From a virus, in the IMG/VR virus record IMGVR_UViG_3300006904_000014, positions 1 through 34,281 of that record: a stretch of DNA of 34,281 nucleotides, one strand, 5' to 3'. The notes under the pieces were generated by a model that was not told where the DNA came from, did no database searches, and saw only the letters and a program-made list of their open reading frames with translations. Below are positions 4,577 to 33,879 of this stretch, one piece after another. The translations under genes and the position numbers were made by a program. Position 1 is the first letter of the stretch; each line of letters opens with the position of its first letter.

Positions 4577-5569
4577 CTACGGCCCCCAGTTGTTTCCACC
4601 GAGCGCGCCGCCCGGTGGTGCCGCTGCGCGGGGTGCCGCCGCGGACATGCCGCCTGTCGCGTAGGCCGCGCCGATCTGGCCGCCCATCTGGAGCAGTCCG
4701 GGGAGGATGCCCTTGTCGTTCGCGGCGATCTGGGCCTTCGCCAGCTGGGCCTGGAGCGTCGCCTGATCCCAGCCGAGCATCTGCCCGAGCGCCGCGAGCT
4801 GCTGCTGGTCGTTCATCCCGCGCTGCGCGAGCTGGGCCTGCAGGTTCGCGAGCGCGACCGTGTTTCCGGCCTGCGCGTTGGCCAGCGTCGTCTGCTGGTC
4901 CATTGCGCCTTGCTGGAGAATTGCCTGCTGGCCGAGCTGCGCATTTTGCGTGGCGACGTTTGCGTCCTGGCCGTACATGCCGCCGTAGAGCTGGCCGAGC
5001 TGGGCGTTTGCGGCCTGCTGGTCCTGCATCTGCGCGCCCGCCGCAAGCCCTGCGCCCTGGAGCCCGAGGTCTGCGCTGTTGCGCGCAGCGTTGCGGTACG
5101 CGAGCGCAGCGTTTGCGCCACGCGCCATCCTCGCCGCAGCCTGTTGCGCAGCGTTCGCCTGCCCGAGTTGGCGGTTCACCGCGAGCTCGCCGGCGCCTGC
5201 CTGCTGCCCGCTCGCGATCCCGCCGAGCCGGTTCGCGACGCCAAGCATCCCACCACGCGACTGGTCGATCTGCCCGGTCGCGAGCTGCGCCGGTGCGCCG
5301 AGCTGCGTGCGGCCCGCCATCGTTGCAGCTGCGGTCGGCGCGGCGCGTCCCTGGGCGTTCTGCGCGATCTGTCCGAGCTGGTTGGTGGCCTGCCCGTAGT
5401 TCGCGAGCTTCCCGTCGACACCCTTGGTCGCATCGCCACCGAACAGGAGGTTCTTCGTGTAGTCGGAGCCCGCTGCAGCATCGATGATCGGTCGTGCACC
5501 TCCAGCCTCGGATATGCCGCCGGTCGCGACACCGAGACCGACTCGCTTTGCAATATCCCAGAATCCCAT
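4577..5569 (-). CDS. Ala/Gln-rich internal virion protein, gp14-like
   Basis: 330 residues. The start MGFWDIAKRVGLGVATGGI is chosen because a GAGGAG site lies 6 nt upstream and the ATG overlaps the TAA of the nozzle gene by one base (TAATG). A longer in-frame ATG upstream would only read through the end of the nozzle gene in another frame. Residues about 90-290 are a low-complexity array rich in Ala, Gln, Gly and Asn with many AQLGQ/ANAQ-type units, predicted helical. Both ends carry Gly/Ala-rich hydrophobic stretches. The short length, amphipathic Gly/Ala N-terminus and position directly after the nozzle gene match the first member of the T7 gp14/15/16-type ejection set. No enzymatic motif is seen. 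The role is inferred. Confidence 0.82.
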   Translation of the reverse strand: MGFWDIAKRVGLGVATGGISEAGGARPIIDAAAGSDYTKNLLFGGDATKGVDGKLANYGQATNQLGQIAQNAQGRAAPTAAATMAGRTQLGAPAQLATGQIDQSRGGMLGVANRLGGIASGQQAGAGELAVNRQLGQANAAQQAAARMARGANAALAYRNAARNSADLGLQGAGLAAGAQMQDQQAANAQLGQLYGGMYGQDANVATQNAQLGQQAILQQGAMDQQTTLANAQAGNTVALANLQAQLAQRGMNDQQQLAALGQMLGWDQATLQAQLAKAQIAANDKGILPGLLQMGGQIGAAYATGGMSAAAPRAAAPPGGALGGNNWGP

Positions 5570-8500
5570 TATAGGCTCCTCGACGACGTGAATGGTTTGA
5601 TGGCGTGCGCCTTGACTCCGCCGGTGAGCAACATCTCGGTCAGCTCGAACGACGCACCCGCGTGGCCCTCCGCCTCGAAGTCCTCGAAGCGGAATTGAAT
5701 CGACTGGCCCGCCTCGTCGAGATGAAGCCTCCACTGGTACAGGCCTGGCGCGGTCCCGCCGTACGCGCCATCGCCGTAGTTCCCGTCGCCGTAGTTCGTC
5801 CCGACGATCGGCTCAAGCCCGATGGTCGCTGCGTTCCCACCGGTGATCCAACCGGCGTCGTCGGTGAGCCCCGTCGCGTCGTACCAGTAGCTGTCGGTCC
5901 AGCCCGGCGTGTAGTCGGTCTGGTACTGGATGCCGAGCTGGTGCGGCGACGCCCACGTGCCGAGCAGGTGCAGGTGCCAGAAGCGCTGGAAGCCCTGCAG
6001 CTGGGGCAGCATGTGGATCCACGCCGTCTCGAGCCGCAGTCGGATCCGCGCGTTGTCGTCGAGGTAGACGCCCGGCGTCTCGCGGAACACGCGACCGTCG
6101 GTGCGCAGGTAGTGGTAACGGCCGTTGACCACGGCGGCGTCGAAGCCCTCGTGGTTCGTGAAGGTCGACCACTGCGTGTGGTAGTGGTCGAACAGCAGCG
6201 AGAGGCCGCTGTCGGTCAGGAACACGATCTGCGTGCGGTCCGGCATGACCGTGGCGCGCCGCACCGTCTGGGCGTTGTACGCCTCTACCGGGGCACCGAC
6301 ATACGAGACGGACCCGTCGCGAGCGAGCAGGTAGATGCCCTTCGCCGACTTGAACATATGGCCGTTCGGCGTCAGGACGATCGACGACGGGTCTGTGCAG
6401 CCGACGTCGGACGTGATGAGCTGCGGCGTCGAGAAGCCGCCCGTCGAGGTGTCGCCGTTCGGCGCCGGACCATCGCCCTGGAACAGGAAGATGCTCGACG
6501 CCTTCCAGATCACGCCGCGCCCGTCCTGGAACGCACCGGCCGTGATGTCGCCGCCGAACGGGTCGCATCCGATCACGAGGTCCGGCGGGATCTCGACGCC
6601 GTAGCCGTCATCGAGCGGCTGCGAGTAGCGCAGGTTCAGGCCATTCGACGGGTCGGTGAAGAATAGCCGCGACTGCCCGCGGAACACGACCGAGCCGAGC
6701 GCCGATGGGTCGTTACTCAGAACACCGCCGTTCATGTAGAGCGGCTCCTGCGTGCGCAGCGTCGCATCGCTCATCTGGTCGATGAACGAGACGGTGTCGA
6801 CGCTGGTCGAGTTCGCGACGTAGCCGTTCGCAGTGCCCGCCGTGGTCGGGTCGAGCGAGGTGACGCGGAACAGCTCGGCCGTATCACCGGTGTCCGATGC
6901 GAGCGATCGCGCAACACAGATCCGCGTGTTGGTGCCCTGTGTGATCCGCAGCGTGGGGAGCGTCAGCGTGACCTGTGTGTCGGCGCCGCCCATCGTGACC
7001 AGCGTGCCGATGGAGACCGGGCCGCGATGGACCTCGCCCTGGAAGTCGGTGCGCTCGTACCAGGCGCGGTAGAGGTACGTCACCGCCGATGTCATCGAAC
7101 CACCGCCTGCGGAGACTGTGACGATCAGCTCGGGCCCGACGTGGAACCCCTGCTCGGTCCACTGTCGCCCGTCGTAGTGCTGCGGGCACGCACCGGCGAG
7201 GTAGAGCCCGCGGCCGAGCTGCGCGTACTGGTGCGAGTCCTCGCTATCGAAATCGAGCGTGAACAGGCGGATCCCGGTCTCGCGGAACTTGTCGTTGTTC
7301 TCGGAGACGAGTCGCTCACGAAAGGGTAGGGAGATGGACACGGAGTCACCATCGAGCGGCGCCGACGCGAGGTGCTGTCGCCCAGGGAGTCCAGCCGCGG
7401 CGCCCGGGGCTAGTCGCGCAACGCAGACCCCGTCGCTCATTCGGAGCGTCACGTAGACGTTGAAGAACGTCGTGTCGTGGACGAGCGTGACAAAGGCGCT
7501 GCTGGTCAGCGAGGAGCCGCCGATCAGGAAGGCGCGGGCGACGATCCCGACCGACCGCACTGTGAAGGTCGCGCCCAGTCCAGAGTTCAAGCTGACCCGG
7601 GCGATGATCACCGATGCGTTCGACGGGTCGACTGCATCCTCCTCCCATGCCGTGATCGCGACGACGTTGGTCAGAGCCAAGGTGACGCGCACGATGCTGA
7701 CGACCACCGGTCCTGTTTTCGTCGAGCCGACTTGCGCAATCGGATCCGCCGGTGAGACGGCCCCGGCGCCGAACATCGCCACCTTGGATGCGCCCCCCGA
7801 GATGTAGGCGATCCCGAAGAGACCGGATCCTGGGTCGTCATTGTCTTCGAACGCGAGACCAAGCGGCGACGTCGCATCCCGCGCGGCGGCGAACGTGAAC
7901 ACGGATGGGTGTCCGAGGATCGGCGACCCGAGCGTACCCGACGCGTCGACGTAGCCGAGGCGGATCGCCGTCGTTCCAGCCTCGAACCATGCGATCGCCG
8001 CCGGCGTCCCGGATCGCGCAGTCGCGCACGCGTCGTAGATCGGCTGGGTGAAGTCCAGGTCAGAGACGAGAACGACGGGCGTTATCGCCGCGCTCGGGGC
8101 CGCCGGGTTGACGACGATCGCCATCACGCTGTTCGTCGTCGGGACGGCGTAGTAGATGTGCAGGTTGGGGCCGCACGTGACACACCGAGGAGACCGCCCG
8201 AGCGCATCGGCCTGCGTTGCCGCGCGGTAGACTCTGCCGCTCACGGCGTCGACGACGTTCCACCACACGCCGCCGGCGGAGTCCTCCCATGCCGCGACCG
8301 TGACGTCGTCGAGCGTGGCGTGATCTGGCTGTAGCTGCTGCGTCCCGGTCTTGACGAGCGGCCGATCGTTGCCGACTACGCTGTAGACCGCTCCGGTGTC
8401 GCTCCACTGGTCCGCGCCGGTCTGGCGCGAGTAGGCGCGGTTCGAGGTGAACGCGATCAGCTCGTTGTCGCGTGTGGCTGTACGAATCGCGCCGGACAGG

Positions 8501-8688
8501 ACGGACGCCGAGCCGTCGATCACCGATGCGAGCGACTCGTAGCCGTTGCGTTTGCGGATGGACGTCTCACGGGAAAAGACGCCGTTCTCGAGCACGAGCA
8601 GCTGCGTCGGAGGGACGTTTTTGCTGTCGGCGCGCGTAGATACGCCCCCGCGAAACCCGACGTGAACCTCAGCGGGGCGTAGCGCCAT
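5569..8688 (-). CDS. Large tail nozzle / packaged-DNA-stabilisation-type protein
   Basis: 1039 residues, ATG start with an AGAGGTG site 4-5 nt upstream. The N-terminus (FRGGVSTRADSKNVPPTQL, then GVFSRETSIRKRNGYESL) has the form typical of podoviral nozzle proteins: a statement of loaded data followed by beta-strands. The rest is almost all beta-strand with repeated aromatic and Asp/Gly turns, consistent with a beta-propeller-like fold as in P22 gp10-type proteins. Near residues 961-974 a short tandem Tyr-Gly-Asp-Gly repeat occurs. The C-terminal region (YQWRLHLDEAGQSIQFRFED) resembles the end of such tail proteins. The protein would sit at the distal end of the short tail and close the DNA channel. 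It follows the adaptor and fibre genes and is translationally coupled to the first ejection gene. The family call is from overall look and context; an alternative is another large tail-hub protein. Confidence 0.78.
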   Translation of the reverse strand: MALRPAEVHVGFRGGVSTRADSKNVPPTQLLVLENGVFSRETSIRKRNGYESLASVIDGSASVLSGAIRTATRDNELIAFTSNRAYSRQTGADQWSDTGAVYSVVGNDRPLVKTGTQQLQPDHATLDDVTVAAWEDSAGGVWWNVVDAVSGRVYRAATQADALGRSPRCVTCGPNLHIYYAVPTTNSVMAIVVNPAAPSAAITPVVLVSDLDFTQPIYDACATARSGTPAAIAWFEAGTTAIRLGYVDASGTLGSPILGHPSVFTFAAARDATSPLGLAFEDNDDPGSGLFGIAYISGGASKVAMFGAGAVSPADPIAQVGSTKTGPVVVSIVRVTLALTNVVAITAWEEDAVDPSNASVIIARVSLNSGLGATFTVRSVGIVARAFLIGGSSLTSSAFVTLVHDTTFFNVYVTLRMSDGVCVARLAPGAAAGLPGRQHLASAPLDGDSVSISLPFRERLVSENNDKFRETGIRLFTLDFDSEDSHQYAQLGRGLYLAGACPQHYDGRQWTEQGFHVGPELIVTVSAGGGSMTSAVTYLYRAWYERTDFQGEVHRGPVSIGTLVTMGGADTQVTLTLPTLRITQGTNTRICVARSLASDTGDTAELFRVTSLDPTTAGTANGYVANSTSVDTVSFIDQMSDATLRTQEPLYMNGGVLSNDPSALGSVVFRGQSRLFFTDPSNGLNLRYSQPLDDGYGVEIPPDLVIGCDPFGGDITAGAFQDGRGVIWKASSIFLFQGDGPAPNGDTSTGGFSTPQLITSDVGCTDPSSIVLTPNGHMFKSAKGIYLLARDGSVSYVGAPVEAYNAQTVRRATVMPDRTQIVFLTDSGLSLLFDHYHTQWSTFTNHEGFDAAVVNGRYHYLRTDGRVFRETPGVYLDDNARIRLRLETAWIHMLPQLQGFQRFWHLHLLGTWASPHQLGIQYQTDYTPGWTDSYWYDATGLTDDAGWITGGNAATIGLEPIVGTNYGDGNYGDGAYGGTAPGLYQWRLHLDEAGQSIQFRFEDFEAEGHAGASFELTEMLLTGGVKAHAIKPFTSSRSL
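5771..5800 (-). repeat. Tandem 15-bp repeat encoding Tyr-Gly-Asp-Gly units
   Basis: Two adjacent 15-nt units (5771-5785 and 5786-5800) share the first 12 bases (tcgccgtagttc on the plus strand). They encode consecutive YGDG-type units near residue 965 of the nozzle protein. Simple coding repeat; probably a glycine-rich turn region. Confidence 0.7.
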
Positions 8689-8756
8689 GCGGCACCTCTG
8701 CGCGGGGGTTCAGGTTGCGCGCCGACCGAGCGCGACTCAGGATGGTGCGAGAGCTA

Positions 8757-9101
8757 ATGAAGACCGTACTGCTGCTGTCGAGTGCCCTTCTGTTTTCATG
8801 CGTAGAGGGGCCGGCTGCTATGCCAGCCCCGAGCGAGGCGGACCAGTGTGCCGTTGCCATCTGGCGGTACAAGTACGCGTCGGAGATCCGCGTCACTGGT
8901 TCCTGCCCAGCCGGGGAGACCAGGACGCTCTCCTTGCACGTCGCTGACGGCGAAACAGAATTGAGCGTGGCCGTGGCCAGGTTCGCGTGCCCGGAGATCA
9001 TCCTGGTGAACCTGGTGAATGCGCTCGAGCCGGACCTGCAGGTTGGCGCCGCGGTGATCCGCGACGACGGCGCGCGAGTGGCCTGCGACGCAGCCCCGTG
9101 A
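8757..9101 (+). CDS. Plus-strand lipoprotein, moron-like
   Basis: 114 residues on the strand opposite to all neighbouring genes. The start ATG at 8757 gives MKTVLLLSSALLFSC: a charged N-terminus, a hydrophobic core and a lipobox-like LFSC, so Cys15 would be lipidated by the Lsp pathway. The mature part has four more cysteines (31, 50, 78, 110), which could form two disulfides in the periplasm. A GAGAG sequence lies just upstream; an ATG at 8742 is an alternative start. The gene sits in a 423-nt space between two minus-strand virion genes, ends 10 nt before the convergent stop at 9112 and starts 68 nt from the divergent nozzle start, so it needs its own promoter. Small phage lipoproteins such as T5 Llp block receptors and exclude superinfecting phages; that role here is only an inference. 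I do not recognise the family. Confidence 0.72.
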   Translation: MKTVLLLSSALLFSCVEGPAAMPAPSEADQCAVAIWRYKYASEIRVTGSCPAGETRTLSLHVADGETELSVAVARFACPEIILVNLVNALEPDLQVGAAVIRDDGARVACDAAP

Positions 9102-9111
9102 CGCCCGGCCA

Positions 9112-10158
9112 TCACGTCCACACCACCCGGTAGCCAAGAACGATGTCTCCGGTGGTTCCGCCGCCGGTCAGGTTGATGCGGAAGAAGAAGCCGTCGCCGT
9201 TGGCGTTGCTCAGCCCGGTGATCTCGAGCTGCACGTAGCCCGGGTTGTTCGCGCTGTTCGTCGCCGCCGCGCCGATGTTGCTGACCGAGCCGTTGGCACC
9301 GTTGATGAGCTCCAGCTGTGCGCTGATCGTCCCCGCCGCGCTGGTCTTCTGGATCCAGACCTTCCAGGCGGTGACCGTTCCGCCCGTCGGCATGATCACC
9401 GGCAGATAGTTCGATCCGGTGGTCGTCAGCAGCGCGAGCGTGCTGCCAAGCGTCGCTCCTGAGGCCGGGGCGGCAAGCTGGATCGGGAATACCTGCCCGG
9501 CCGCCGCGAACGGCGTCGTTGAGACCGTACCGGAGGGGCTGACCGTGAGAACTCGGGCGAACCCAGTGCTCCCCGGATCTGGGCTCGTCGGGAACGTCAT
9601 CGTGTACGACACCGCGAGCGCCGACGGTGCCGCGAGCCCAACGAACACCGCGTCGCTCGTGCCGGTCTCGAACAGGCGCACGTCGCCGCTCGCGAGCCGC
9701 GCCCATCCGGTGCCGCTGTTCTGCTTGAACGTGTAGCGATCGCCTGAGTCGTCGAAGTTCAGCGCCGCGGCGACCGAGACGTAGTCGCCGCCGATCGCGC
9801 CCGCGAAGGCGCCAACGTTCAACGCGGCCCCGTTGGTTATCTGCACGTTGGTGCCGGCGCTCGATCGCCACGTCAGCTCATTGTTGACTGCGTTGACAAA
9901 GAGGCTCTTATTGTTCGAGGTCAGCGCGACGATCGACGCGAAGGTCAGGCGGTGCAGGTTGATGGGCGCGTACAGCGACGCGAACGTCAGATCGGCGTTG
10001 ATCTCGATCCCGTTCGTCTTGACGGTCGTGCCCTTGCCTGGCGAATGGTCATGCGCGTCGATCAGTGCGGTGTTCGCGTCCTGCGTGTCATCCCAAACGC
10101 CAGCGCCCGAGACTCCGCGCACCGGCAACGTGAGTCCGATGTTTGGGTATGTCGTCAC
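9112..10158 (-). CDS. Fibre-like virion protein
   Basis: 348 residues, GTG start overlapping the previous stop by 4 nt (GTGA). The N-terminus (YPNIGLTLPVRGVSGAGVW, DDTQDANTALIDAHDH) is the type found on many phage tail or head fibres, where a conserved anchor is followed by a glycine-rich turn (HSPGKGT). Residues about 60-200 are short beta-strands with repeated 'LFVN', 'LTWRSSAGTNVQITNG' and 'DDSGDRYTFKQ' motifs. The C-terminal 130 residues form a Thr/Ser/Gly-rich beta domain (APASGATLGSTLALLTTTGS). All this suggests an elongated trimeric beta fibre or virion surface protein. It lies between a small protein gene and the nozzle gene, in the virion block. Receptor binding is possible, but which part is distal is unknown. 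Confidence 0.78.
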   Translation of the reverse strand: MTTYPNIGLTLPVRGVSGAGVWDDTQDANTALIDAHDHSPGKGTTVKTNGIEINADLTFASLYAPINLHRLTFASIVALTSNNKSLFVNAVNNELTWRSSAGTNVQITNGAALNVGAFAGAIGGDYVSVAAALNFDDSGDRYTFKQNSGTGWARLASGDVRLFETGTSDAVFVGLAAPSALAVSYTMTFPTSPDPGSTGFARVLTVSPSGTVSTTPFAAAGQVFPIQLAAPASGATLGSTLALLTTTGSNYLPVIMPTGGTVTAWKVWIQKTSAAGTISAQLELINGANGSVSNIGAAATNSANNPGYVQLEITGLSNANGDGFFFRINLTGGGTTGDIVLGYRVVWT

Positions 10159-28025: not shown

Positions 28026-28621
28026 CGCCCCAGCGCACTTCGGTGCCCGTTGCACCGGCACAGGTCCGACTCGAGGCAGTTCGCGCACAGCGCACCGGCC
28101 GCTGCTTCGAGCCCGACCTGGTCCAGCATGCGATTGATTGCCCCGTCGAACACCTCACCGTCGGTCAGAGCAACGCCGTCTGCTGCGGCGCGCTCGATCT
28201 GGTCGTCAACGAGCGACGCAGTCGGATCGGACACGGCAAGCGCCACAAAGCGAGATAGGCCAGCGTCGGGCGGCGCAGCCGCGGCCCGTGCGGCGATCAC
28301 GCGCTCCTCGTCGCGACGCTTGCGCTCGGCATCGCGCGCGGCACATCGGGCGTCCAGCTCCTCGCGAGACGACACTACGACGGGCGCGGCCTTCGGCTCG
28401 ATGAGCGGCACGATCCCGCGGCGTCGCTTCGTTGCAATGCCGGCGTCGAACGACGACATCACCAGGCCGAGTGGAACCTCGCCGTCGATCACGGCGCGGA
28501 GACCTCGAGCAGCGGCTTGTGCCAGCGAGATGCCGTGGGCCGCAGCGAAGTCGACGCCATCCTGGTATAGCTCGTTCGAGAGCGAGACTGAGCGGCGCGT
28601 CTGTTTGTGTTTCTTGGTCAC
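28022..28621 (-). CDS. Ribbon-helix-helix-like DNA-binding protein
   Basis: 199 residues, GTG start at 28621 overlapping the helicase TGA by 4 nt. Residues 10-46 fit a ribbon-helix-helix fold: a beta-strand with alternating residues (RRSVSLSN), then helix A (ELYQDGVDFAAAHG) and helix B (ISLAQAAARGLRAVI). The middle (87-117) is a long Arg/Ala/Glu helix and likely a linker or coiled coil. The C-terminal part contains CANCLESDLCRC (Cys179, 182, 188, 190), a possible zinc knuckle. RHH proteins often act as repressors or ParB-like DNA binders. Its place behind the helicase suggests control of replication genes or DNA handling. Confidence 0.72.
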   Translation of the reverse strand: MTKKHKQTRRSVSLSNELYQDGVDFAAAHGISLAQAAARGLRAVIDGEVPLGLVMSSFDAGIATKRRRGIVPLIEPKAAPVVVSSREELDARCAARDAERKRRDEERVIAARAAAAPPDAGLSRFVALAVSDPTASLVDDQIERAAADGVALTDGEVFDGAINRMLDQVGLEAAAGALCANCLESDLCRCNGHRSALGR

Positions 28622-29976
28622 GAGATACACGTCGTTTCCCCTCGCCAGCGGGCGAAGATTGTTCCGGTTCTGCCGTTGCTGTTCTTCATCACGATCACCT
28701 GCGCCGTCGCCTCGAATTCGTCGCGCGTCGGCTCCAACGTGTGGCCCTCCCACTCGGGATGCCAGTCGACCCCTTTAATCGGGTCGCCATACACCGAGCC
28801 GCGGTAGATCGCGACGGCGCACTTCGCCCTCTCCTCGAGCGAACCACTCTCGCGTAGATCCGAGAGCTGCGGGCGCTTGTCCTGTCGCCGCTCGAGCTCG
28901 CGGTTGAGCTGAGACATGACCACGTAGGCGATCCCGTCGTGCTTCGCCGCGTCTGCGAACGTCGACACGATCTCGCTCAGCGCCTCGTGGGTCGACAGCC
29001 GAGGTCGCCGGTCGGGGTGCTTCACGAGCTGCACGTAGTCAACGATGGCCACGCGCGTGCCGTTCTGCTTCCTGTGGCGCCGCACGCTGCGCACGATCTC
29101 GTCTGCGGTGATTCCGCTGCGCCCGTCGACCATCCACCGCCGGCCGCGCATCTTCGCTGCGGCTCGGATGAGTTGGTCCATCTCGCCACGGTTCACCTCC
29201 GCGTTCCTCAGGCGCTCGGCCGCGACACCGCTGCAGCGCGATATTGCGCGATCGGCGTACGCGTCCTCGGTGTCCTCGAGAGAGAACAGATGGACCCCGA
29301 CGCCGTCAGCAGAGCCGGCCTCCGCGGTGGCAAGCCCCAGACTCGACTTCCCCATACCGGGCCGCGCGGCGACGATGCTCACGATCCCGGGCTGCCACCC
29401 GCCCATCTTCTCGTCGAGTTTTGCCACCCCAGTCGGGAACCCGGTCATCGCCTTCGCACCGGTGGTTCGCTCACCGAGGATGCGGTCCAGCTGACCGAAC
29501 CGGCGCCTCACCAGGTCGGTGATGCTGGTCGTCTTGTCGGGCTGGTCCTCGTCGATCTTCGACAACACCGCCATCGCCGCGGATAGGATCTCTGCGCCGC
29601 CGGTCTCCGAGGTGCTTCTCTCGAGAACATCGGACAGACCGACCCGAACACGTCGAGCGAGCGACGCATCTCGGATCTGCCGCACGTACTCGACCGCGTT
29701 GTCCACGGTCGGGACGTTCAGGCAGAGTTCCCCGAGGAACGCGAAGTCGACCGCGCCGCCGTAGCCGTCCTTCGCGAGCTGCGCCTGCACCGTCACGACG
29801 TCGATCGGCCGGTTCTCGTGCTCGAGATTGCGCATCGCGCCGAACACGAGCCGATGCTGCGCGTGCTGGAAGTCGGCGACCTCGAGCCGAGGGAACTGCG
29901 CGAGCGTTCCGGGATCGAGAAAGACGGCTCCAAGGACGGAGGCTTCGAGTGCGTGGGCTGCGATCGGTGAGGTCAT
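28618..29976 (-). CDS. dnaB: Replicative DNA helicase, DnaB type
   Basis: 452 residues, ATG with 4-nt overlap. Residues 1-135 are the DnaB N-terminal domain (HALEASVLGAVFLD, YVRQIRDASLARRV). The C-terminal RecA-like ATPase has Walker A AARPGMGKS (203-211), Walker B VAIVDYVQLV (309-318), and the Q/R-containing segment SQLNRELERRQDKRPQLSDL (355-374), followed by the arginine-finger-type element SGSLEERA. Length and order fit phage and bacterial DnaB/gp12-type helicases. It forms a ring, moves on the lagging-strand template and is loaded at the origin, here probably by the protein encoded directly upstream. With no DNA polymerase seen, the phage likely recruits host replisome parts or encodes a polymerase outside the window. 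Confidence 0.93.
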   Translation of the reverse strand: MTSPIAAHALEASVLGAVFLDPGTLAQFPRLEVADFQHAQHRLVFGAMRNLEHENRPIDVVTVQAQLAKDGYGGAVDFAFLGELCLNVPTVDNAVEYVRQIRDASLARRVRVGLSDVLERSTSETGGAEILSAAMAVLSKIDEDQPDKTTSITDLVRRRFGQLDRILGERTTGAKAMTGFPTGVAKLDEKMGGWQPGIVSIVAARPGMGKSSLGLATAEAGSADGVGVHLFSLEDTEDAYADRAISRCSGVAAERLRNAEVNRGEMDQLIRAAAKMRGRRWMVDGRSGITADEIVRSVRRHRKQNGTRVAIVDYVQLVKHPDRRPRLSTHEALSEIVSTFADAAKHDGIAYVVMSQLNRELERRQDKRPQLSDLRESGSLEERAKCAVAIYRGSVYGDPIKGVDWHPEWEGHTLEPTRDEFEATAQVIVMKNSNGRTGTIFARWRGETTCIS

Positions 29977-32554: not shown

Positions 32555-32794
32555 CACAGCCTGTGCTCCTCTCAGATACGGCCATCGCTCCACCAGTTCG
32601 CGGAACCGACGCTCCGCCTCCGAGTGCGGCCACAGGAACGCGATCGCCTCGAGATCCGACAGCGTCGTTTTGACGGGCGACAGCGACTGCACGAACGTTC
32701 CGTCGACGACCAGCAGGTACGAGCACAGGCCGTCGCTGTCGGGGACTGAGCGAGTGGGGCGCGCGGTTAGGTGGTCGAAGTAGGAGGCGGTCAT
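32540..32794 (-). CDS. Small unknown protein after RNA ligase
   Basis: 84 residues, ATG at 32794 with 4-nt overlap of the ligase stop; a longer in-frame start exists inside the ligase but is not needed. Mostly helical, hydrophobic and basic (YFDHLTARPTRSVPDSDGLC; TTLSDLEAIAFLWPHSEAER). Its last codons run into the 14-bp tandem duplication, so its end may be recently changed. No family recognised. Coupling to the ligase suggests a linked function. Confidence 0.72.
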   Translation of the reverse strand: MTASYFDHLTARPTRSVPDSDGLCSYLLVVDGTFVQSLSPVKTTLSDLEAIAFLWPHSEAERRFRELVERWPYLRGAQAVRSRP

Positions 32795-33879
32795 CGCCCG
32801 AGCATCCTCTCCAGGCTCTGCAGCGAGCCCCGCCGCATGATCGCCTTGGCGGTGTCGAGGTCGTGTCGCTCCTCGCCGAGCATTCTGAACAGCACCGACG
32901 ACCACGGTCGGTCCTTCACGGCCATCGCGAACTCCTTGCGGGTCGCGCGCGGCATGTTCTCCTCGAAGTCCTTCACGCACTGCTCGGCGATCAGGTCTAG
33001 GTCCGCCTGAATCGGCTCGATGACCGGCCTGAACTCGGGGAAGCTGTTGAGCAACTCCTCGGTATCGCCGGTCTGCCAGAGCTCGAACGCGCGCCGCGGC
33101 GTCGCCTCGCCCTTGAGGTGGTGCAGGATCACGTAGCGCGGCGACTTGATCTTGACGCGGTTGAACGCGTCATCGACCACGACGAAGCCTTCCTGCCTGA
33201 GCGGGTCGAGCGCCTCGGCCGCCGCGAGGCAGGCGTCGACGGTTCCGATCGGGAACTCGCTGACCAGTTCGCAGTGCATCTGAGCTGCGTGTTCGGCGAG
33301 TTCCGCGCTCGTCAGTTCGAGCCCGGTGTCCAGCCAGCGCGCGCCGTGGAGGACCAGTCGCGGCCTATCGTGGCGGACGACCACGCGATTCGGCGAGTCG
33401 CACAGCTCGAACATGTACGTCACGCGCACGTCGGCGGCGCGGTGCCAGAGCCGATCGGCCGCCACCTGCCAGAACGCATCGCGGAACGTCCTGGTGTCGC
33501 TTCCGAACGAACCGCCGGCCGTCGGATGTCCGCTGCTGGCGACGCACCACCCGTAGTCGATGCCCCTGTAGTGTAGGATCATCAGCGAGCCGTCGAGCTT
33601 CTCTTGTACGCGAGCACTGGCCCAGTCGATGGGCGCCGCGAGGTGCTCACCGTGGTTCCAAAACTTGTTGTATGGCCACGCGAGCACGCGGCGCTGGGCC
33701 ACGTCGACGACCATCCCGCGGCACTGCTGGACCATAGGGTCGGCCATCGGCGACTCGATCTGGTTGTACTTGAGCGAGGCGAGGTCGCCGTCGCGCACAA
33801 CCGAGATGTGCAGGTCGTTCTCGAGGTGCTCGAGCCAGTCGGTACGCTCGAGCATGAGGCGTTGGACGAGGTTTTCCAC
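32791..33879 (-). CDS. RNA ligase, T4 Rnl1-type
   Basis: 362 residues, GTG start with GGAG 6 nt upstream. The nucleotidyltransferase motifs are present in order: motif I QEKLDGSLM with the AMP-accepting Lys94, motif IIIa-type TYMFELCDSPNRVV (154-167), motif IV EGFVVVDD (Glu230), and motif V RVKIKSPRY (Lys243/Lys245). The N-terminal PYNKFWNHGEH resembles the T4 Rnl1 start. Such enzymes seal RNA nicks, and in T4 Rnl1 repairs tRNA cut by the PrrC anticodon nuclease together with polynucleotide kinase Pnkp. No kinase is seen in the window, and a tRNA-like element is 10 kb away. tRNA or other RNA repair is a reasonable inference. Confidence 0.92.
   Translation of the reverse strand: MENLVQRLMLERTDWLEHLENDLHISVVRDGDLASLKYNQIESPMADPMVQQCRGMVVDVAQRRVLAWPYNKFWNHGEHLAAPIDWASARVQEKLDGSLMILHYRGIDYGWCVASSGHPTAGGSFGSDTRTFRDAFWQVAADRLWHRAADVRVTYMFELCDSPNRVVVRHDRPRLVLHGARWLDTGLELTSAELAEHAAQMHCELVSEFPIGTVDACLAAAEALDPLRQEGFVVVDDAFNRVKIKSPRYVILHHLKGEATPRRAFELWQTGDTEELLNSFPEFRPVIEPIQADLDLIAEQCVKDFEENMPRATRKEFAMAVKDRPWSSVLFRMLGEERHDLDTAKAIMRRGSLQSLERMLGR

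Follow-up and report, generated by a model that had tools for sequence, protein, structure and literature searches.

The window, by which we mean the whole 34,281-nucleotide stretch analysed here, is an IMG/VR virus record in which a small open reading frame, ORF 8757–9101, runs against the two virion genes that flank it. We asked whether this frame is a gene, how it came to lie beside the fibre gene, and what its product may do. A sequence-only reading had described it as a moron lipoprotein gene whose product could block receptors for other phages. To our knowledge, only a few coliphages have yielded superinfection-exclusion lipoproteins, and sequence searches would miss most such proteins. 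The relatives used for comparison, about 80, were taken from searches with the nozzle-like protein and the N-terminal domain of the fibre. Elsewhere in the window, genes for a DnaB-like helicase and a T4-type RNA ligase are found at 28618–29976 and 32791–33879 (-).

ORF 8757–9101 encodes a predicted lipoprotein

Both flanking genes lie on the minus strand, as the sequence-only reading had stated, and the ORF occupies its own space between them without overlap, with gaps of 68 bp to gene 5569–8688, which starts divergently, and of 10 bp to the end of the fibre gene (Table 1). The two neighbours are structural genes, but the name 'nozzle' for one of them was that reader's label and is not proved; we use 'nozzle-like' for this protein.

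The codon-position GC of the ORF is 0.66/0.51/0.80, coding-like as in real genes of this phage, and its base composition is close to the phage's own. One relative, L003/L007 (IMGVR_UViG_3300050513_000050), encodes the same lipoprotein at 94% identity. Of the 29 substitutions between the two genes, 3 fall at the first, 4 at the second and 22 at the third codon position (P = 3.4e-6 for the third). The NG86 dN/dS for this pair is 0.095, as low as that of the nozzle-like gene (0.091); the fibre gives 0.205. The remaining five phases show a weaker signal or none: dN/dS is 0.21 in an antisense frame with the same wobble positions and above 1 in the rest. The window and L003/L007 are the only two distinct sequences of this lipoprotein, termed type A; L002/L005 is the same phage as the window (99.99%). 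Because dN/dS is 0.095 and 22 of the 29 changes fall at position 3, we count the ORF as translated; judged by these substitution patterns, it is a real reading frame under selection. Spurious long frames abound in GC-rich DNA, and one rival reading takes the ORF for such a frame, untranslated and lying by chance opposite the structural genes. It is contradicted by the dN/dS and the codon-position bias, and lipobox ORFs recur at the identical spot in relatives. We reject this reading on dN/dS and regard it as scarcely credible. The comparison of homologues, which the sequence-only reading had named as a way to overturn its proposal, thus favours translation.

The predicted precursor begins MKTVLLLSSALLFSC. 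The signal peptide and the lipobox-like LFSC noticed earlier are present by pattern rule, and the four mature cysteines are in the sequence. With K as its second residue and Cys as its fifteenth, the precursor matches the PROSITE-type lipobox rule; F at −2 deviates from the strict consensus [LVI][ASTVI][GAS]C quoted in PMC6139136. The plus-strand frame is open upstream of 8757 as far as a TTG at 8715, and a proper signal peptide is obtained from the ATG at 8757 (or 8742). The span from Cys31 to Cys110 is likely a disulfide-bonded all-beta domain, as modelled by AF2 at low confidence (pLDDT 43); a fold search with this model was dropped because the pLDDT is too weak. In the E. coli sorting rule, Asp at +2 is the inner-membrane retention residue. 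Among all the lipobox proteins compared, Asp at +2 is absent except in L073.

Table 1. Positions in the window (first nine rows) and types of lipoprotein at the corresponding site in relatives
Feature	Position or loci	Strand	Description
Virion protein, 'nozzle-like'	5569..8688	-	1039 aa; weak PHROG match 'virion structural protein'
Leader between divergent starts	8689..8756		conserved in L007, L004, L006
Segment without blastn match in L004	8744..9779		distal fibre and lipoprotein gene
Lipoprotein gene, type A of the site	8757..9101	+	ATG to TGA, 114 aa; coding signature, dN/dS 0.095
Predicted signal peptide MKTVLLLSSALLFS, lipobox end LFS-C	8757..8798	+	sequence, pattern-rule match
Codon of Cys15, predicted lipid-bearing	8799..8801	+	residue +2 is Val, not Asp
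Mature cysteines Cys31, 50, 78, 110	8847..9086	+	sequence; AF2 model
Fibre gene	9112..10158	-	348 aa; conserved N-terminal domain (DAHDH..GKG)
Fibre tip domain	9115..9486	-	homologous to C-terminal domain of L016, L020, L073 lipoproteins; jelly-roll in L020 model
Type B	L004, L023a, L052, L062
Type E	L013, L014, L065, L048		L048 without lipobox
Type T	L020:886-1851, L016:3121-4128, L073:7071-8006, L017:3682-4557	-	about 300 aa; signal peptide and two jelly-roll domains
Apparent singletons	window (A), L006, L012, L015, L023b, L051, L026, L056

The leader upstream of the gene (8689–8756) is conserved over about 8689–8745 (GTTCAGNTTGCG..CTCAG) even in L004 and L006, whose lipoproteins have no relationship to that of the window, and it contains a weak Shine-Dalgarno-like GAGAG at 8749–8753. 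It is a candidate promoter region and may hold a two-way promoter of unfamiliar type. No recognisable promoter (sigma-70-like) or terminator was found, and the inverted repeats around the lipoprotein gene are short and of the kind expected by chance. A Mu-like invertible fibre-tip segment was considered and set aside, given these short repeats and the relatives' ORFs having lipoprotein signals of their own. Expression during lysogeny, raised by the sequence-only reading, found no support: no promoter was detected, and a pattern search of GTDB species genomes with the profile of the flanking nozzle-like protein gave no host or prophage match.

The site beside the fibre gene is optional and multi-allelic

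Comparison with relatives shows an empty site in 17 loci, about half of those resolved, where the fibre stop lies −18 to +11 bp from the next start and the direct successor of the fibre is the counterpart of gene 5569–8688. Filled relatives carry an insert of 0.2–1.8 kb (424 bp in the window), and in almost every case this includes a lipoprotein gene on the other strand whose end is no more than 25 bp from the fibre stop. A positional scan with a fixed lipobox rule, covering 56 dereplicated loci and 25 bp from the fibre stop, detected an opposite-strand lipobox ORF ending −15 to +21 bp from that stop in 15 of them, with about 0.01 expected. Elsewhere in 585 kb there are only four such ORFs, one of which is the second lipoprotein of L023/L034. 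Cases at the site that the rule missed are L016/L036, L026 and L020; in L048 a type-E relative lacks the lipobox, and in L023 two lipoproteins stand in tandem. No lipoprotein was seen in the 0.18–0.28 kb inserts of L042, L047 and L064, and the region is organised differently in some of the more distant loci.

At least nine unrelated types of lipoprotein are found at the site by BLAST grouping, and some are very rich in cysteine. Even L004 and L006, with nozzle-like proteins 83% and 79% identical to that of the window, carry lipoproteins at this position and on this strand that are unrelated to the window's. The window gene is therefore inserted between genes that are adjacent in relatives and replaced by unrelated genes in sister phages. 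These empty sites, unrelated types and fixed position identify ORF 8757–9101, on the evidence of sequence comparison, as a member of a moron-type cassette for predicted outer-membrane lipoproteins beside the receptor-binding gene, the fibre presumably being the receptor-binding protein. The moron proposal of the sequence-only reading is supported, in place and in orientation. As in other morons, the gene sits between otherwise abutting genes, on the opposite strand, and is replaceable by unrelated genes; unlike typical ones, it has no recognisable promoter or terminator of its own and its base composition is near that of the phage.

In L020 the site also carries a gene that looks by eye like a DNA methyltransferase, with a DPPY motif (L020:2471-3160 (-)), and one further small gene (L020:3205-3573 (+)), so it accepts more than lipoproteins. 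A type-E-like gene, recognised by eye and with a GC-T lipobox-like start, is found at L114:14494-14865 (-) (G008:33494-33865), away from an empty fibre site.

The variable region extends into the fibre gene. Blastn homology to L004 breaks off within the fibre gene, at 9780, and is regained at 8743, which leaves 14 bp to the start of the lipoprotein gene; for L006 the corresponding point of return is 8740. Given the break at 9780 and the resumption at 8743, the distal fibre and the lipoprotein form one contiguous variable block. We found no association between lipoprotein type and fibre-tip type among 18 phages (permutation p 0.68), so the two partners need not travel together or match functionally, and a matched pairing of types is not supported. 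The fibre tips of the window (fibre gene 9112–10158) and its relatives fall into two sequence classes, which are swapped between close relatives.

Some of the lipoproteins carry a fibre-tip domain

The second domain of the type T lipoproteins is clearly homologous to the fibre tip of the clade in L020, L016 and L073 (E-values of 8e-31, 2e-17 and 4e-16) and weakly similar to it in L017 (6e-4). The L020 lipoprotein matches the tip of its own fibre at 38%, while those of L016 and L073 are closer to the tips of other phages. The structural model of the L020 lipoprotein has a pLDDT of 75 overall, rising to some 90 or higher over the greater part of its second domain. That domain aligns with CBM16 (Z 11.8, rmsd 3.7 over 129 residues, about 12% identity), and the model also resembles viral proteins, tail fibres among them. 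With CBM16, CBM36 and CBM6 modules the L020 domain shares the jelly-roll fold only; this is not a feature of the window lipoprotein. Type T lipoproteins may be membrane-anchored decoys.

The sequence-only reading did not recognise the family of the window lipoprotein, and our searches agree: no relative was found in Pfam, PHROG or PDB, none in cultured phages by tblastn (the first phage matches are at chance level), and no homologue in GTDB genomes by pattern search. There is no sequence similarity between type A and the Llp, Cor and Rtp45 families (tblastn, PHROG), and no PHROG or Pfam match to o-spanin families. The fibre-tip domain is not detected in it either (E>1 with tip HMMs, hhalign probability 0.5%). 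We considered whether it is a diverged fibre tip and found no support, the short blastp similarities (E 0.014–0.047) being judged chance. Cultured phages likewise yielded no relative of the fibre, of the nozzle-like protein, or of three of the lipoprotein types.

Receptor masking is the proposed function

The closest parallels to this locus are small lipoproteins that make a phage receptor unavailable. In the T5 record AY543070, oad (-) and llp (+) are adjacent and divergent. Acting on the periplasmic side, Llp blocks its receptor, FhuA (PMC9586334). T5 Llp, to which the Cor group is related, is likewise a small phage lipoprotein with its gene next to the receptor-binding gene and on the opposite strand. 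The layouts differ in that llp diverges from oad, whereas the window gene is convergent with the fibre gene and divergent from the virion gene beyond it; the clade of the window, unlike T5, has many unrelated types at one site, and neither Llp nor Cor resembles type A in sequence. The lipoprotein Rtp45 makes the receptor LptDE unavailable and carries an internal disulfide (PMC12685063). The Rtp45/Oekolampad exclusion lipoproteins are also small, and a disulfide is predicted in the window's; Rtp45 is about 6 kDa and of different sequence.

We regard receptor masking as the best explanation in view of the position, the predicted export, the optional presence and the occurrence of fibre-tip domains in several alleles, and we suggest, with a probability of roughly 0.5, that the window gene encodes a receptor-masking (superinfection exclusion) moron lipoprotein. 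The product would be exported and lipidated at Cys15. It would probably go to the outer membrane, because its +2 residue is not Asp, by an E. coli rule that may not be that of the host. A small cysteine-bonded beta domain would then lie on the periplasmic or outer face and interfere with a surface receptor, such that the infected cell and its debris would no longer adsorb related phages, in parallel with receptor masking by T5 Llp and Rtp45. Relatives with either no insert or one of the types described above are what might be seen for a gene that tracks host receptors. We infer lipidation, outer-membrane location, timing, receptor interference and the kinship of type A in kind with its neighbours at the site. 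The fibre-tip homologue in the lipoproteins of L016, L020, L073 and, weakly, L017 argues for masking. Against it stand the independence of lipoprotein and tip types, contrary to a simple matched-pair model, the spanin-like hints in several types, the failure to detect a promoter or terminator, and the small sample of type A, with its two distinct sequences. The receptor blocking suggested earlier has thus gained the T5 llp layout and a fibre-tip domain in three, probably four, relatives' lipoproteins, but type A shows no similarity to Llp, and here we still infer masking from position and kind, not from sequence.

Because relatives hold different anchored proteins, or none, at this fibre-side spot, the window lipoprotein is probably an interchangeable tool that alters the surface of the infected cell, perhaps excluding other phages. 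A wider proposal, which is tentative and in our view doubtful, is that this uncultured phage clade keeps an exchangeable fibre-side cassette of masking lipoproteins, some of them anchored fibre-tip decoys that would occupy the receptor from the side of the cell, with type A as an independently recruited masker for another receptor. The kind of gene is known; a multi-allelic site and lipoproteins with fibre-tip domains are new as far as searches of an open-access library show. The fibre-tip lipoproteins suggest a mechanism, in which a homologue of the domain that the phage itself uses to bind the receptor, tethered to the membrane, would mask that receptor. In addition, many unrelated candidates can be picked out by position, without homology, as genes on the opposite strand whose stop codon is no more than 25 bp from that of the fibre gene.

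Alternative functions

The main rival to receptor masking is a detached o-spanin, that is, the outer-membrane half of the lysis complex encoded apart from its inner-membrane partner. O-spanins (Rz1-like) are, as predicted for the window product, phage-encoded outer-membrane lipoproteins; small size and lipobox fit, and the families are very diverse, the largest separation from an i-spanin being about 1 kb (PMC6139136). The type-B proteins of L004 and L052 match the PHROG 'Rz-like spanin' phrog_812 (E 0.001) and others match phrog_456 weakly. However, phrog_812 also matches proteins of Bacillus, Lactococcus and archaea at E<=1, suggesting that it partly scores signal peptides, and the window lipoprotein itself matches no spanin. 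No small TM or inner-membrane partner lies within about 1 kb, where the neighbours are virion genes, and the gene is on the opposite strand and missing from about half of the resolved relatives. Fibre-tip types of about 300 aa are unlike spanins, and a more plausible lysis cassette is seen in G001 and G002, where another TM/lipobox gene abuts a gene with weak CHAP similarity. We consider an o-spanin improbable.

Morons commonly aid the survival of the infected cell, and the lipoprotein could instead serve another envelope function, such as nutrition, adhesion, stress, predation or immunity to the toxin of a competitor. The many unrelated types, some of them Cys-rich, and their independence of the fibre tip would fit such a role, but the fixed fibre-side position and the fibre-tip domain of several alleles point to receptor biology, and a pattern search of bacterial genomes found no homologue; this explanation is unlikely, though it deserves consideration. 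That the gene, when present, almost always abuts the fibre stop, and that tip-like lipoproteins could contact the fibre, might also indicate an accessory that aids fibre folding or, via the tip, keeps progeny fibres off the host membrane. Known fibre chaperones, however, are not exported and opposite-strand products as this one is predicted to be, and the gene is absent from many relatives whose fibres share the N-terminal domain, making this role very unlikely.

Two relatives show a candidate lysis cassette of TM/lipobox and weak CHAP genes at the late-gene end (L107:7106-8136 (+) and L110:468-1435 (-)). A second lipoprotein-like protein of 432 aa (LAACW) is encoded in the same direction as the late genes at L110:2456-3754 (-) (G002), and the corresponding place in G001 is taken by a carbohydrate esterase (SASA family).
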